A stretch of DNA of 64,000 nt from Sulfurimonas sp. (GTDB taxonomy: Bacteria > Campylobacterota > Campylobacteria > Campylobacterales > Sulfurimonadaceae): contig JALSLJ010000014.1 of the NCBI GenBank assembly GCA_026988315.1, forward strand, positions 1-64,000, read 5' to 3'. This document shows, piece after piece, positions 31,449 through 37,044 of the stretch. The position numbers and the translations under genes were made by a program. Every line of letters begins with the position of its first letter. The stretch's first letter is position 1. The notes under the pieces are model-generated. The model was given only the letters and a program-made list of their open reading frames with translations. It ran no database searches and was not told where the DNA came from.

Positions 31449-33362
31449 TTAGAAATATAAAAAATCTCCATCTTTTAGTATATTTGCCTCCCATTTGCCC
31501 CTATATTGTTCCATCTCTTTTATTATTGTATTCATAAAACTTGGTTTTATATGGTTTATGTAAAGCTCGATATCTTCCCTTTTTAACTTTTTTAGTTGCT
31601 CAAAAAGTAATTTTGGTGTTAAATGCTTACTTTCTATTGCAAGATTTTCCATATCCGATGGAAAAGAACATTCAATTACCATTGATTTTATATCTTTTCT
31701 TTTATCAATTATTTCAAGTATATTATCAAGACTAAATGTATCTGCTGTTATCAACACACTTGTATCACTCTTCTTCACAATATATCCGCAACTTGGAACT
31801 GTATGGTCTGTTGCAAACGCCTCTATGCTCTCATCAACACCAATCTTATATACTACGCCTATTTCTAACTCTGTATATTTAATTGTCATTTTTTTTGAAT
31901 TATTCATCGGGATAGCAGAAAAATCTGGCCAAATTAGATTATTTAAAAAATATTTTTTTACAGCTTTAATAGTTTGGGGAAGCCCTATAATATTTAATGT
32001 TTTTGTCCGCATAGAGAAATAGTTATCTATTATATATGCTATATCGCTAATATGATCAAGATGAGAGTGTGTAAGCCAAATGTTTTCTATCTTGAGAGAT
32101 TCCTCTTCCAAAGGTTCAAGTAAATTCCCCGCATCAATCACATTTTTTGGGTTCAGTAAAAATGCACTTGTACCAAAACCTTTTGCTTTTGTCCCATAAG
32201 CACCTAGAACCTTAATGGTTTCACCATAAATCTCTTTCTCTTGCACAAAAGAGTCTTTAAATGTTTCTCTAATTTCTAAAAATTTATCTATATTTTCAAA
32301 AAACATATCTACTAAACTTGGGTCAAAATGTTTTCCTCTCTCTTCCTTGAAGAGATTAAAAATTCTATCATCATCCCACGCTTTTTTATAAACTCTGTCA
32401 GAGCCTAGAGCATCAAAAACATCCGCTATAGCTGTGATTCGACCATATATATGAATCTCATCACCCTTAAGTTTTCTTGGATATCCTGTTCCATCCCATT
32501 TTTCATGATGCTCATACGATACAATAGCCGCAGCTTTAAGGAGAGGGCGATCAGAGTTCTTTATCATACTATAGCCCAGTTCAGCATGGGTATCCATTAT
32601 ACTTCGCTCTTGAGCATTGAAACGACCTGGCTTTTTCAGTACTGAATCAGGAATAGCAATTTTACCTATGTCATGCATAGGGCTTGCTTGTTTTAATAAC
32701 TCTGCTTCTTTCTCATCCATCCCAATTGCTAGAGCTAAAACCTTAGAATACTCTGCGACTCTTTTTACATGATTCCCAGTCTCTTTACTTCTACTCTCAC
32801 CAATAGCACCCATAGTAAAGACAACCTCTTTTTGAGTATCTTCTATCTCTGCTGTGAGTTTTGCCGAAATTATTGTCTCTGCGGCATAGGTACTCGCTAA
32901 AAGCAAGCGCTCCATGTCTCTCTCATCAAAAACACCCTTTTCCCCTTTATGGTTTATAACTTGAAATGCACCAATAATCTCATTTTCATTGTCACACATA
33001 GGGATAACCATCATACTTTTTGTTGTATATCCAGTTTTTTTGTCAATATCAGAGTTAAACCTATCATCTTTATATACATCATCAATAATAATCTTTTCAT
33101 TATTCATAATCGAGCTACCTACAATTCCAGAGTTAATTGGTAACTCTATGGCATCCATCCCATGCGCTACTTTTGTCCATATGCTCTTTTTATCATCATT
33201 TACAACCCAGACAGTACATCGATCAGCACTTGTAAGAGCTCTACCCATATCTGCTAAAACCATAATAATATCATCGTAGCTTCTCATAGAAGAAACTTCT
33301 GTTAAGTATTTAAATATAAGTTTTAAAATCTCGTTTGCACTTAAACTTCTTGCGTGTTTCAT
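31449..33362 (-). CDS. GAF / HD-GYP / class II cyclic-nucleotide phosphodiesterase fusion
   Basis: The 637-residue soluble protein has three parts. Residues about 20-170 are a GAF sensor domain (RCTVWVVND, NSGIVGSSI, MMVIPMCDNENEIIGAFQVI). Residues 180-365 are an HD-GYP domain with HD at 230-231 (MHDIGK), HH then GTGYP at 291-295, and AIADVFDAL; this family hydrolyses c-di-GMP. Residues 384-637 are a metallo-beta-lactamase-fold domain with VIDAGNL, HSHLDH at 432-437, IWPDFSAIP, ATDHTVPSCGYIV and HLTPKLL, the pattern of class II 3',5'-cyclic nucleotide phosphodiesterases. It lies 27 nt downstream of a CHASE2 nucleotidyl cyclase. Substrates are inferred, not shown. Confidence 0.88.
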   Translation of the reverse strand: MKHARSLSANEILKLIFKYLTEVSSMRSYDDIIMVLADMGRALTSADRCTVWVVNDDKKSIWTKVAHGMDAIELPINSGIVGSSIMNNEKIIIDDVYKDDRFNSDIDKKTGYTTKSMMVIPMCDNENEIIGAFQVINHKGEKGVFDERDMERLLLASTYAAETIISAKLTAEIEDTQKEVVFTMGAIGESRSKETGNHVKRVAEYSKVLALAIGMDEKEAELLKQASPMHDIGKIAIPDSVLKKPGRFNAQERSIMDTHAELGYSMIKNSDRPLLKAAAIVSYEHHEKWDGTGYPRKLKGDEIHIYGRITAIADVFDALGSDRVYKKAWDDDRIFNLFKEERGKHFDPSLVDMFFENIDKFLEIRETFKDSFVQEKEIYGETIKVLGAYGTKAKGFGTSAFLLNPKNVIDAGNLLEPLEEESLKIENIWLTHSHLDHISDIAYIIDNYFSMRTKTLNIIGLPQTIKAVKKYFLNNLIWPDFSAIPMNNSKKMTIKYTELEIGVVYKIGVDESIEAFATDHTVPSCGYIVKKSDTSVLITADTFSLDNILEIIDKRKDIKSMVIECSFPSDMENLAIESKHLTPKLLFEQLKKLKREDIELYINHIKPSFMNTIIKEMEQYRGKWEANILKDGDFLYF

Positions 33363-33389
33363 ACTAAGTCCTTAGTCATAAATAACCCT

Positions 33390-35435
33390 CTATTTTGTTG
33401 TCATCTTATGTACACCCCATGGATGTTTATCATCTATTTGTTGCACAAAATATTTTGATACGCCATCATCATATTTTTCTACTAAATATCCAAATAATTT
33501 TTGAGCACCTTCTAAATTATCATCTATATATAAATTTAATGCCTCATCATAAAGTTTCTTAAGTTCTCTAGCATCATCTGTAAAAGGGAGCAGTTCATAC
33601 AATAATACCGCTTCATTTTTGCCTTTTACCTTAACAGGTTCTATTTTTCTATAAACAAAGATATCACTAATTTTAAGAACCGTAAACTCTGTTATCAAAA
33701 TATTAATCCCATAGTTTTTAGTTAAGCCCTCCACTCTTGAAGCTAAATTAACACCATCACCTATGACAGTATAGTTAAATCTTGTATCTGAGCCCATATT
33801 TCCAACAACAACCTCAGCAGTATTTATCCCTATACCAATTTTTATAGGGGTCAAACCCTCGGAGATTAATTGCTTATTTAGGGTATTTAATCTCTCTATC
33901 ATCACTAAAGCTGTTTTACACGAAGCATCTGCATGCTCTTTTACATCCACAGGAGCATTAAAAAACGCCATAACTGCATCACCTATGTATTTATCAAGCA
34001 TCCCACCATTTTCTAGAACTGCATCAGTCATTGGGGTAAAATACCTATTTAAAAGCTTAATTAAAGAAACTGGATCCATAGACTCTGAGATTGTTGTAAA
34101 ACCCCTAATGTCACTAAAAAGGATACTAAGCTCTTTTTTTTCTCCACCTAATGAAAGTGCTTCTGGATTTTCTATGAGCCTATCAAGCAGGTCTGCTGAG
34201 AGGTAAGAGGAGAAAGCTTCGCGTATAAATCGACCACCTTTTTCTTGAATATTGAATGTGATTGCCTCCACTCCAAGCATACTTAAAACTAAAGCTATCA
34301 AAGGGTAAAAAAGATCAATATATAGCATCTCTACCACAAATAGATAACGAATAAAAGCATATAACGCTAAATACACTACAATATTTATAACAACTCTATA
34401 TAAAATCTTTTTGAAAAGTAAAACTAAAATAAAAGGCAATAAAACCATAACAATAACCAACAAAGAGCTTACACCGAGATATTCTTTAATGAGATGATCT
34501 TGTAAATAGTTGGAGATAAATGTATAGTGAAGCAGTGGGCCAGGCATTGGTCCCATTGGTGTGCTTACAACATCCCCCGCTCCAACCTCTGTAATTCCTA
34601 GTATTACTATTTTGCCCTCAAAATACTCAGGTGCTATCTTTTGTGTTGCAAGATCTAAAAACGACACAACATCATATTGGTCGGGTTGATAAAAATTGAG
34701 CCTTACAAAACCGTTGTCATTAAGTTCAATCGACTTATTGTTTATTGCAACAGTTCTATCCCCTATCCTTTGAATATCTGCATTATATTTAAGTCGAATC
34801 CCCTGAATAGCTAAAGATGGATATAAAATATTTTGAAAATACACTGCAATTGGATAAGAGCGAAGCAGATGATCACTCTCAGAGAGAGTAGAAAAACTTC
34901 CAGAGAGAGAGCAAGATTCCATTATTGGCAAAATATTCATCTCTGCATAAGAAGCTGAAATAAAAGGTGGGTTTTTATATTCTGCGATTTGAGCTTGAAG
35001 CATATCAAGTGAAGAGTCACTCAGTATCTCAAGCACTTCATCACTGATTTCTTGCGTAGATGTATGCCTAAGAAAAAATCCACAGACACTGCTATTTAGT
35101 CCAGCTATCGACTCTGCAAGTGCCATGTCTTGTTCTTTGGATGTTGGCTCTGAAAAAATCATATCCATCAGCACAACATCTGCTTGACTTAAAGCATCTA
35201 CTCCCTTTGCTAAAACATCCCTATCCCAAGGCCATCTTCCAAACTCATTTACGCTAGGCTCATCAACCGCCACAAAAACTATCTCTTCACTCGGTTCTTT
35301 TTTTTGTAAATTAAAATTAACATCATTAAAGCGTAAAGAAAAACTCTCAAAAGGCTCTATTTTATTTATTTGAAGTAGGAGCGTTACTATTATTATTGTC
35401 AGTAATAAAGTAAGATAGAGAAGTTTATCTTTCAC
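33390..35435 (-). CDS. CHASE2 class III adenylate/guanylate cyclase
   Basis: The 681-residue protein has an N-terminal membrane helix (7-22), a CHASE2-type periplasmic domain (about 23-315: VFVAVDEPSVNEFGRWPWDR, DVVLMDMIF, GKIVILGITEVGAGD), three membrane helices (about 322-393) and a C-terminal class III cyclase. Catalytic positions visible: metal Asp442 (FSDIRGF) and Asp486 (IGDAVMAF), base-recognising Lys482 and Thr556 (NYTVIGD), and transition-state Asn563 and Arg567 (VNLASR). The Lys/Thr pair indicates an adenylate cyclase of the IIIb kind. The start is GTG 35435. It sits between a FecR-domain gene and a phosphodiesterase fusion. Confidence 0.93.
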   Translation of the reverse strand: MKDKLLYLTLLLTIIIVTLLLQINKIEPFESFSLRFNDVNFNLQKKEPSEEIVFVAVDEPSVNEFGRWPWDRDVLAKGVDALSQADVVLMDMIFSEPTSKEQDMALAESIAGLNSSVCGFFLRHTSTQEISDEVLEILSDSSLDMLQAQIAEYKNPPFISASYAEMNILPIMESCSLSGSFSTLSESDHLLRSYPIAVYFQNILYPSLAIQGIRLKYNADIQRIGDRTVAINNKSIELNDNGFVRLNFYQPDQYDVVSFLDLATQKIAPEYFEGKIVILGITEVGAGDVVSTPMGPMPGPLLHYTFISNYLQDHLIKEYLGVSSLLVIVMVLLPFILVLLFKKILYRVVINIVVYLALYAFIRYLFVVEMLYIDLFYPLIALVLSMLGVEAITFNIQEKGGRFIREAFSSYLSADLLDRLIENPEALSLGGEKKELSILFSDIRGFTTISESMDPVSLIKLLNRYFTPMTDAVLENGGMLDKYIGDAVMAFFNAPVDVKEHADASCKTALVMIERLNTLNKQLISEGLTPIKIGIGINTAEVVVGNMGSDTRFNYTVIGDGVNLASRVEGLTKNYGINILITEFTVLKISDIFVYRKIEPVKVKGKNEAVLLYELLPFTDDARELKKLYDEALNLYIDDNLEGAQKLFGYLVEKYDDGVSKYFVQQIDDKHPWGVHKMTTK

Positions 35436-35451
35436 TATGTAAATCCCCGTT

Positions 35452-36156
35452 TTAGTTTGTCAAATTCATCAGCTCTTTAAAATATGCAAACTCTGCTTCA
35501 TCATCTTTACTCCAGCCATCTTCATTCACTCTCTCTTCATTAAATGAGATGCGATTCCCCTCTTTAAGGTCAAACTCTTTTGTTTTGATGGGCTCTGCAT
35601 ACTTATTCTGTTTATTTTTAAACTTTTCAAATTCAGACATCTGCTCATCTATAAATTTGTTATACTTAGCTTCAACACTTTTTCTATAAAGATTAAACTC
35701 CTCTTTTATACTACTAACCCCAATAAGTCCCTCTTTTAATATTACAGAAGCATCCCCGTCCGCAGAATTTATGATAAAAGTTGTCCCTTTGATACCTATA
35801 ATGGCAAAAGGTGTGGTAACCGCTAAGGCATGTTGCGAATCTCTTGAAGTGATTTTATAATATATCTTTCCATCTTTTTGCTCTAGCGATAAAGCAGATG
35901 CGAAACGGACAGTCGAACTTGCATCAAGAACGATAGTTGAATCATCTCTAAGTTTAATAACAGCTGATGAATTTTTAGATGTACTTAACAAATCACCAGC
36001 TTTAATTTTAAAGCCAACTTTCACTTTGCTTTTTTTAAAGGAATCTTCACTTTTCACTTTTACAACTCCATTTAGCTGCTCCACACTACCAATAGCATCG
36101 CTTGCATAAGTAAAAGTAAAAAAAGTCGCTATAAAGATTAAGAAAAATATTCGCAT
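35452..36156 (-). CDS. Periplasmic FecR-domain protein
   Basis: The 234-residue protein from ATG 36156 (GGAG 6 nt upstream; the ATG at 36168 overlaps that site and is rejected) has a signal peptide MRIFFLIFIATFFTFTYA. A FecR fold follows (GVVKVKSEDSFKKSKVKVGF, KAGDLLSTSKNSSAVIKLRD, VTTPFAIIGIKGTTFII), then a charged helical tail. FecR domains occur in sigma regulators and as stand-alone periplasmic proteins with CHASE2 cyclases. It is first in the operon, 16 nt ahead of the cyclase. A role as periplasmic ligand or partner of CHASE2 is inference. Confidence 0.9.
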   Translation of the reverse strand: MRIFFLIFIATFFTFTYASDAIGSVEQLNGVVKVKSEDSFKKSKVKVGFKIKAGDLLSTSKNSSAVIKLRDDSTIVLDASSTVRFASALSLEQKDGKIYYKITSRDSQHALAVTTPFAIIGIKGTTFIINSADGDASVILKEGLIGVSSIKEEFNLYRKSVEAKYNKFIDEQMSEFEKFKNKQNKYAEPIKTKEFDLKEGNRISFNEERVNEDGWSKDDEAEFAYFKELMNLTN

Positions 36157-36216
36157 TTTAAGCTCCATATGTAGATTTGTGACTATTATATCATTTATAT
36201 TATAAAATTTATATGG

Positions 36217-36315: not shown

Positions 36316-37044
36316 ATGTTAAAGGTACTGTTTTCACCATCTGAGGGTAAAAAAAACGGCGGGAAAGAAAAAGCAAAAGAGTTATTTGGCTCAAATAGCG
36401 CGAGAGAAAGTATTTTAAATGGATACAACAATATAATCAATAGTGGCAATAAAGAGGAGATAATAAAACTTTTTGGAATTAAAAAATTTAATGATTGCGA
36501 GCCATATATCAATGATATATTTAACTCTCCTCTAATGAGTGCTATTGAGAGGTATCAAGGGATTGCCTATGATTACTTAGAGTTTGATTCACTTGATGAA
36601 AAGGCTCAAGAGTATCTAAAATTAAACACCATGATTTTTTCAAATCTTTATGGTCCACTCCTTGGTGGAGACACAATAGCAAACTATAAAGTAAAACAAG
36701 GTAGTGATATAGGTGAAATTGCTCCTGATAAGTTTTACAAAGATAGATTTTCATACCAACTCGATCTTTATCTTAGTAATTATGAGATTTTAGACCTCCG
36801 TGCAGGATATTATGACAAATTTTACAAAATATCCAAACCCTACACCACACTGAAATTTCTAAAAGGTGGTAAAAGCGTCAGTCATTGGGCAAAAGCTTAT
36901 AGAGGCTTAGTTTTAAGGGAGCTCGCAAAACACAATATCAATTCTATTGAGGAATTTATCTCTTTAGAGATAGCTACCCTTCAGATTAAAGAGATTAAAG
37001 TTATCAAGAATAAAACAGAGATAGTATATAATATTATAGAGTAA
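36316..37044 (+). CDS. yaaA: YaaA family protein (peroxide stress, DUF328)
   Basis: The 242-residue protein begins KVLFSPSEGKKN, the YaaA/DUF328 start, and contains AIERYQGIAYDYL, FSNLYGPLLGGDTIANYKVK, LDLRAGYYDKFYKI and SHWAKAYRGLVLREL. In E. coli YaaA limits free intracellular iron and oxidative DNA damage after peroxide exposure. AAGGAT precedes the ATG. It is followed by a TrmH-family gene 14 nt later, probably co-transcribed. Confidence 0.92.
   Translation: MLKVLFSPSEGKKNGGKEKAKELFGSNSARESILNGYNNIINSGNKEEIIKLFGIKKFNDCEPYINDIFNSPLMSAIERYQGIAYDYLEFDSLDEKAQEYLKLNTMIFSNLYGPLLGGDTIANYKVKQGSDIGEIAPDKFYKDRFSYQLDLYLSNYEILDLRAGYYDKFYKISKPYTTLKFLKGGKSVSHWAKAYRGLVLRELAKHNINSIEEFISLEIATLQIKEIKVIKNKTEIVYNIIE

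Follow-up and report, generated by a model that had tools for sequence, protein, structure and literature searches.

According to the text of a study published in mBio in 2022 (PMC9239204), 21% of Campylobacterota species have an adenylate cyclase and 86% have a Crp-like protein. All of the cyclases found there carry a CHASE2 domain, and most are found in a cluster with FecR and TPR proteins and a cAMP phosphodiesterase. Because that text reports this arrangement in Campylobacterota, the FecR-CHASE2 cyclase-PDE cluster is already known and not new as such; an earlier note on the DNA analysed here had called cAMP signalling barely described in this phylum. cAMP-sensing GAF domains are likewise known in c-di-GMP enzymes, namely Tlr0485 (GAF-HD-GYP) and Lcd1 (GAF-GGDEF) (PMC8846402). 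The main text of the mBio study, supplementary tables aside, does not mention a link to HD-GYP or GAF domains. In that text and in the literature that we searched, we found no description of the HD-GYP/GAF fusion, of its two opposite builds, of the occurrence of PDE together with GAF-HD-GYP in other phyla, or of the missing usable Crp in this genome.

Results

The three-gene operon

In the window, the whole stretch of 64,000 nucleotides of Sulfurimonas DNA that was analysed, the genes for a FecR-domain protein, a CHASE2-class III cyclase and a GAF/HD-GYP/class II PDE protein adjoin one another on the minus strand at 31449-36156, where the earlier note had placed them, with gaps of 16 and 27 bases (Table 1). 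Their open reading frames span 35452-36168 (238 aa), 33390-35435 (681 aa, GTG start) and 31449-33362 (637 aa). The first ATG of the fecR frame is at 36168; the second, at 36156, has GGAG 8 bases upstream and thus the better Shine-Dalgarno spacing. The domain calls of that note all exceed the curated Pfam cut-offs against which the matches were judged, and the catalytic residues of the cyclase, HD-GYP and PDE domains are intact. Judged from the sequences, these matches and conserved active sites are not due to chance. Upstream of fecR lies a divergent gene (36316-37044, plus strand) that looks yaaA-like by eye, and the fusion gene is followed by tRNA-Thr, tRNA-Tyr, tRNA-Gly and then tuf.

Table 1. 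Coordinates of the genes and domains of the operon, with the supporting matches
Feature	Position	Strand	Evidence
FecR-domain protein with N-terminal signal peptide	35452..36156	-	PF04773 2e-11, over cut-off
CHASE2-class III nucleotidyl cyclase, predicted adenylate cyclase	33390..35435	-	PF05226 2e-40, PF00211 (Guanylate_cyc) 1e-25
CHASE2 domain, residues 15-332	34440..35393	-	PF05226 2e-40
Cyclase catalytic domain, residues 433-609	33609..34139	-	PF00211 1e-25; invariant catalytic residues
GAF-HD-GYP-class II cyclic-nucleotide phosphodiesterase fusion protein, 637 aa	31449..33362	-	Pfam domains
GAF domain, residues 1-168, candidate cAMP sensor	32859..33362	-	PF01590 4e-11; model pLDDT 86
Predicted HD-GYP c-di-GMP phosphodiesterase domain, PmGH type	32238..32858	-	PF13487 (HD_5) 1e-33
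Predicted class II phosphodiesterase domain, metallo-beta-lactamase fold	31452..32228	-	PF02112 (PDEase_II) 2e-15; model pLDDT 95

The signal sequence of the FecR protein, read by eye from the translation, is MRIFFLIFIATFFTFTYA-S. FecI/FecR systems have a cytoplasmic N-terminal anti-sigma domain and an adjacent ECF sigma gene, whereas the FecR protein of the window is without both. Only PF04773 was matched, with no cytoplasmic N-terminal anti-sigma domain, and no ECF sigma gene is found among the fecR neighbours (the yaaA-like gene, the cyclase, and the tRNA/tuf genes). We rejected the classical anti-sigma reading on the signal peptide, the match to PF04773 only and the neighbouring genes.

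Conservation and co-occurrence

Close homologues of the fusion enzyme are found in Sulfurimonas and its relatives. The FecR and CHASE2 cyclase genes lie directly beside the enzyme in 15 of 20 loci, a proportion that describes operon structure and not frequency, because the loci were picked for carrying the GAF-HD-GYP/PDE enzyme; the trio that the earlier note had wanted followed across genomes is thus conserved. The enzyme is encoded by one fused gene in nine of these 15 loci and by two overlapping or adjoining genes, for GAF-HD-GYP and for PDE, in the other six. Most of the 20 loci share the same flanking genes, of about 242 aa on one side and 399-418 aa on the other. The remaining five have a different TPR/FecR/CHASE2-cyclase cluster (two loci, L070 and L079) or no adjacent cyclase (three loci). 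At L070 and L079 the GAF-HD-GYP-PDE gene stands at its usual site and the different cluster beside it is divergently transcribed, which looks like an exchange of the cyclase module. A stand-alone PDE-II gene occupies the same site, with no FecR or cyclase gene adjoining, at L103, L104 and L105, and the L104 genome has no class III cyclase at all. The genome of L100 encodes several class III cyclases, and at this locus a GAF-HD-GYP gene is followed by two tandem PDE-II genes.

Co-occurrence of the genes, on which the earlier note had staked its proposal beforehand, is strong across 397 Campylobacterota genomes. Of these, 75 have both PDE-II and a class III cyclase, 16 have PDE-II only, 2-5 have a cyclase only and 301-304 have neither of the two (Fisher p about 1e-58 to 1e-62, with genomes counted without correction for descent). 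PDE-II thus occurs in about a quarter of the genomes of the phylum. Counted by genus, which does not fully correct for descent, 30 of 68 have both, two PDE-II only, one a cyclase only and 35 neither. The two genes lie within 6 kb of each other in 57 of the 75 genomes that have both. Together with the domain assignments, this co-occurrence upholds the claim that one operon encodes, as predicted activities, a sensor and enzymes that make and degrade a cyclic mononucleotide, tied to c-di-GMP turnover. In the 16 genomes that have PDE-II but no class III cyclase over the cut-off, the orphan PDE-II copies that were aligned keep their metal ligands; the PDE may therefore have a use without the cyclase. 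In one cyclase-free genome (G077) the fusion gene is broken by a stop codon, a single case that fits decay after loss of the cyclase.

Two domain orders and unfused relatives

A reversed build, PDE-GAF-HD-GYP (type B, about 780 aa), is found in other Campylobacterota families beside a divergent CHASE2 cyclase, so that this build and the GAF-HD-GYP-PDE build of the window (type A) both adjoin CHASE2 cyclases. A TPR/beta-barrel protein often adjoins the type B loci, and FecR is present in some. An unfused PDE gene lies beside CHASE2 cyclases in Burkholderiales, Troglogloeales and Myxococcota, and beside GAF-HD-GYP or HD-GYP genes in Nitrospirota, Bdellovibrionota, Nitrincola and Desulfurobacterium (Aquificota); two loci (L123, L172) combine an unfused PDE with both kinds of neighbour. 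In a quick tree of the HD-GYP domains, whose long branches make fine placements unsure, a fully supported branch divides the two builds into separate lineages, and the reversed build groups with unfused proteins of the Burkholderiales type. The two domain orders and the separate HD-GYP lineages indicate that PDE-II and GAF-HD-GYP came to be linked on at least two occasions, and this speaks for a functional connection between them.

Some loci have other surroundings. In Campylobacter gastrosuis (L127) a PDE-GAF-HD-GYP fusion without an adjacent cyclase lies next to an autotransporter gene. In two proteobacterial MAGs (L165, L168) the PDE lies near GAF-HD-GYP genes and near CHASE2 proteins that have a Ser/Thr kinase as their output in place of a cyclase, an architecture confirmed by Pfam for L165.

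The GAF domain and the Crp-like proteins

The best PDB folds for the GAF model are PmGH and the cyclic-nucleotide-binding GAF domains of PDE5, CyaB2, Lcd1 and PDE10A. In CyaB2 the cAMP-contacting residues are R291, T293, I308, D356 and N359, and we mapped the pocket from these contacts as given (PMC4411481). The corresponding residues of the cassette GAF are R48, T50, V65, D107 and T110, three of them the same as in CyaB2; at the other two, V takes the place of I and T that of N. These positions are conserved in type A GAFs as R, T/S, V, D and T, and background GAFs share several of them. Unrelated single-domain GAFs of the same family from related genomes share most of the pattern, including R-S...D...S/T and NKFD, and we have dropped the pocket as proof of cAMP binding. 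The pattern is compatible with cAMP but, being shared in this way, not diagnostic of it. A Thr at the CyaB2-293 position is, among the aligned GAFs that keep the arginine, confined to cassette GAFs. Type B GAFs are without the pocket arginine. The NKFDE motif is complete in most of type B; in most type A GAFs its N, F and D are kept and its K and E replaced. The GAF could also sense another ligand than cAMP, and a similar GAF is carried by PmGH.

cAMP-binding CNBDs of the Crp type have a Glu and an Arg-Ser/Thr in their phosphate-binding cassette. The earlier note had seen no Crp-like receptor in the window. A genome-wide search shows that the genome does hold four Crp-like (CNBD) proteins, but the canonical cassette is present in none of the four, so that the claim survives in this narrower form; this, with the 39 GGDEF places of the genome, counts in favour of the relay proposed in the Discussion. 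L001, L003 and L004 were compared by alignment and L002 by eye from its ORF; L002 is missing the Glu and has Arg-Glu, and the best Crp-like protein of the genome has Tyr-Pro at the Arg-Ser/Thr position. By analogy with known cAMP-sensing GAF domains, we reason that the cassette GAF is a likelier cAMP receptor than these proteins. Arg-Ser/Thr, as in the canonical cassette, occurs in four of the 28 CNBDs that were aligned from 14 further cassette genomes. These four are L193, L198, L207 and L211, of which L198 and L207 lie in frames of more than 600 aa; by sequence they are possible other cAMP targets.

A different account, which we consider unlikely, is that the two messengers are controlled in parallel. 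The cyclase and PDE-II would adjust cAMP for a receptor that lies elsewhere and has escaped recognition, such as a divergent Crp-like protein, GAF-HD-GYP would sense an unrelated ligand, and the fusion would merely co-express two phosphodiesterases. The four Crp-like proteins would supply candidates for such a receptor, but they have Tyr-Pro or other residues in place of Arg-Ser/Thr. The pocket residues are not diagnostic and cAMP sensing by the GAF is argued only by analogy; against this, both domain orders, and the unfused relatives too, keep the GAF together with HD-GYP and PDE, and the genome has only two PF01590 GAF domains.

The HD-GYP and PDE domains

The motifs HDIGK, HH, GYP and DxFDAL are all found in the fusion protein. 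The HD-GYP domain matches 4mcw with 232 bits over 214 residues and keeps the E/H, HD, H, HH, GYP and D ligand positions. In the alignments it thus has the HD, HH and GYP motifs and the extra Glu and His ligands of the PmGH type, and is predicted to belong to it.

The C-terminal domain scores 57 bits against the PDEase_II family profile (cut-off 23.7) and has the HxHLDH metal motif with distal His and Asp. Its metal ligands H56, H58, D60, H61, H144, D165 and H228 are invariant in an alignment of 20 sequences. The top PDB fold for its model is yeast PDE1 (4ojv, TM 0.83), and a profile search ranks PDE1 first (62 bits), ahead of RNase Z (44 bits). The stretch GLPxTIxxLxxHxFNDxIWPD is common to the domain and yeast PDE1. 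Since the metal ligands are kept and PDE1 comes first by fold and by profile, sequence and model assign the domain to the class II cyclic-nucleotide phosphodiesterase family.

It is very unlikely that this domain is instead an RNase Z-like or other MBL nuclease, with no cAMP hydrolysis in the cassette. RNase Z is the second sequence match, but its 49.5 bits to TIGR02651 are far under the family cut-off of 292.95 and PDE1 outranks it. The fusion gene adjoins tRNA genes, but these have their own perfect -10/-35 promoter match. Some PDE-II copies persist without a cyclase, as described above; PDE-II is nevertheless closely associated with cyclases and is confined to about a quarter of the genomes. 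We rejected the RNase Z identity on cut-off, fold rank and distribution, and leave it a low weight, as the genome yields no RNase Z above that cut-off.

The cyclase

Class III adenylate cyclases are marked by two metal-binding Asp, a Lys and a Thr or Asp for adenine, and an Asn and an Arg for the transition state. The cyclase of the window, the only class III cyclase in this genome by a single genomic match, has both metal Asp, the adenine pair K482/T556 and N563/R567; D442, K482, D486, T556, N563 and R567 are invariant in an alignment of 15 sequences, some distant at about 30% identity. The closest solved catalytic domains are adenylate cyclases, including Pseudomonas CyaB (3r5g). Because of the adenine-type pair and the PDE1-like hydrolase, the cassette nucleotide is most likely cAMP. 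Least likely of all the alternatives, and very unlikely, is another product (cGMP, cCMP or cUMP, as in Pycsar), with the cassette serving some other kind of signalling or defence. The cyclase domain is matched by PADLOC PycC models (1e-28), and the fold matches to the PDE domain include the anti-Pycsar enzyme Apyc1, but CHASE2 and FecR point to envelope sensing and the Lys/Thr pair is of the adenylate cyclase type, and we rejected this reading because the PycC match covers the generic catalytic domain only and no Pycsar effector gene lies beside the cyclase at this locus.

Discussion

The best explanation of the locus, to which we give a probability of about 55%, is a self-contained relay from cAMP to c-di-GMP. 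Together, the FecR-domain protein and the CHASE2 domain would act as a sensor on the envelope side and govern the genome's only class III cyclase, which would make cAMP at the membrane. The fusion protein, encoded by the following gene, would read the cAMP with its GAF domain and so switch its HD-GYP domain, lowering local c-di-GMP. The C-terminal class II PDE domain of the same protein would destroy the cAMP and thereby reset the switch. The domains, their intact active sites, the conservation of the operon and the repeated independent linkage of the activities come from sequence and structure comparison. We infer cAMP as the nucleotide, the GAF as its receptor and the role of FecR; the cAMP effect on HD-GYP is probably activation, by analogy with Tlr0485.

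A wider proposal is tentative, and we rate it at somewhat less than even odds. Campylobacterota and several other phyla may possess a Crp-independent cAMP pathway, in which cAMP from a CHASE2 cyclase acts directly via GAF-HD-GYP and not via a transcription factor, c-di-GMP falls, and the pathway carries its own cAMP off-switch, the same activities having been assembled independently at least twice in opposite domain order. It could also explain a puzzle, namely that Campylobacterota have adenylate cyclases although their Crp-like proteins seem unfit for binding cAMP: the receptor may be part of the operon, with c-di-GMP as its target. A single locus would then turn an envelope signal into two second messengers.

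The locus combines features of several known systems. With the cluster described in the text of PMC9239204 it shares the CHASE2 cyclase, cAMP phosphodiesterase and FecR protein together, and some type B loci also have the TPR protein; in the window, by contrast, the operon is without a TPR gene and the PDE is fused to GAF-HD-GYP. The PDE domain shares fold, profile match, metal ligands and the GLPxTI...IWPD stretch with yeast PDE1 (4ojv), although identity is about 20% and PDE1 is a stand-alone enzyme with insertions. PmGH (4mcw, from Persephonella marina) has the GAF-HD-GYP layout of the cassette protein, with a match of 357 bits across 360 residues, but ends after its HD-GYP domain, without a PDE-II domain. 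Tlr0485, compared here by a review's description only (PMC8846402), also joins a GAF to an HD-GYP domain with cAMP as the proposed regulator of c-di-GMP breakdown, but no fused cAMP phosphodiesterase or cyclase operon is mentioned for it. In the system of PMC6717892 the sensor is a CNBD, the hydrolase is an EAL domain and no cAMP hydrolase is attached; what it would share with the cassette is the principle that cAMP directly controls c-di-GMP hydrolysis within one protein.
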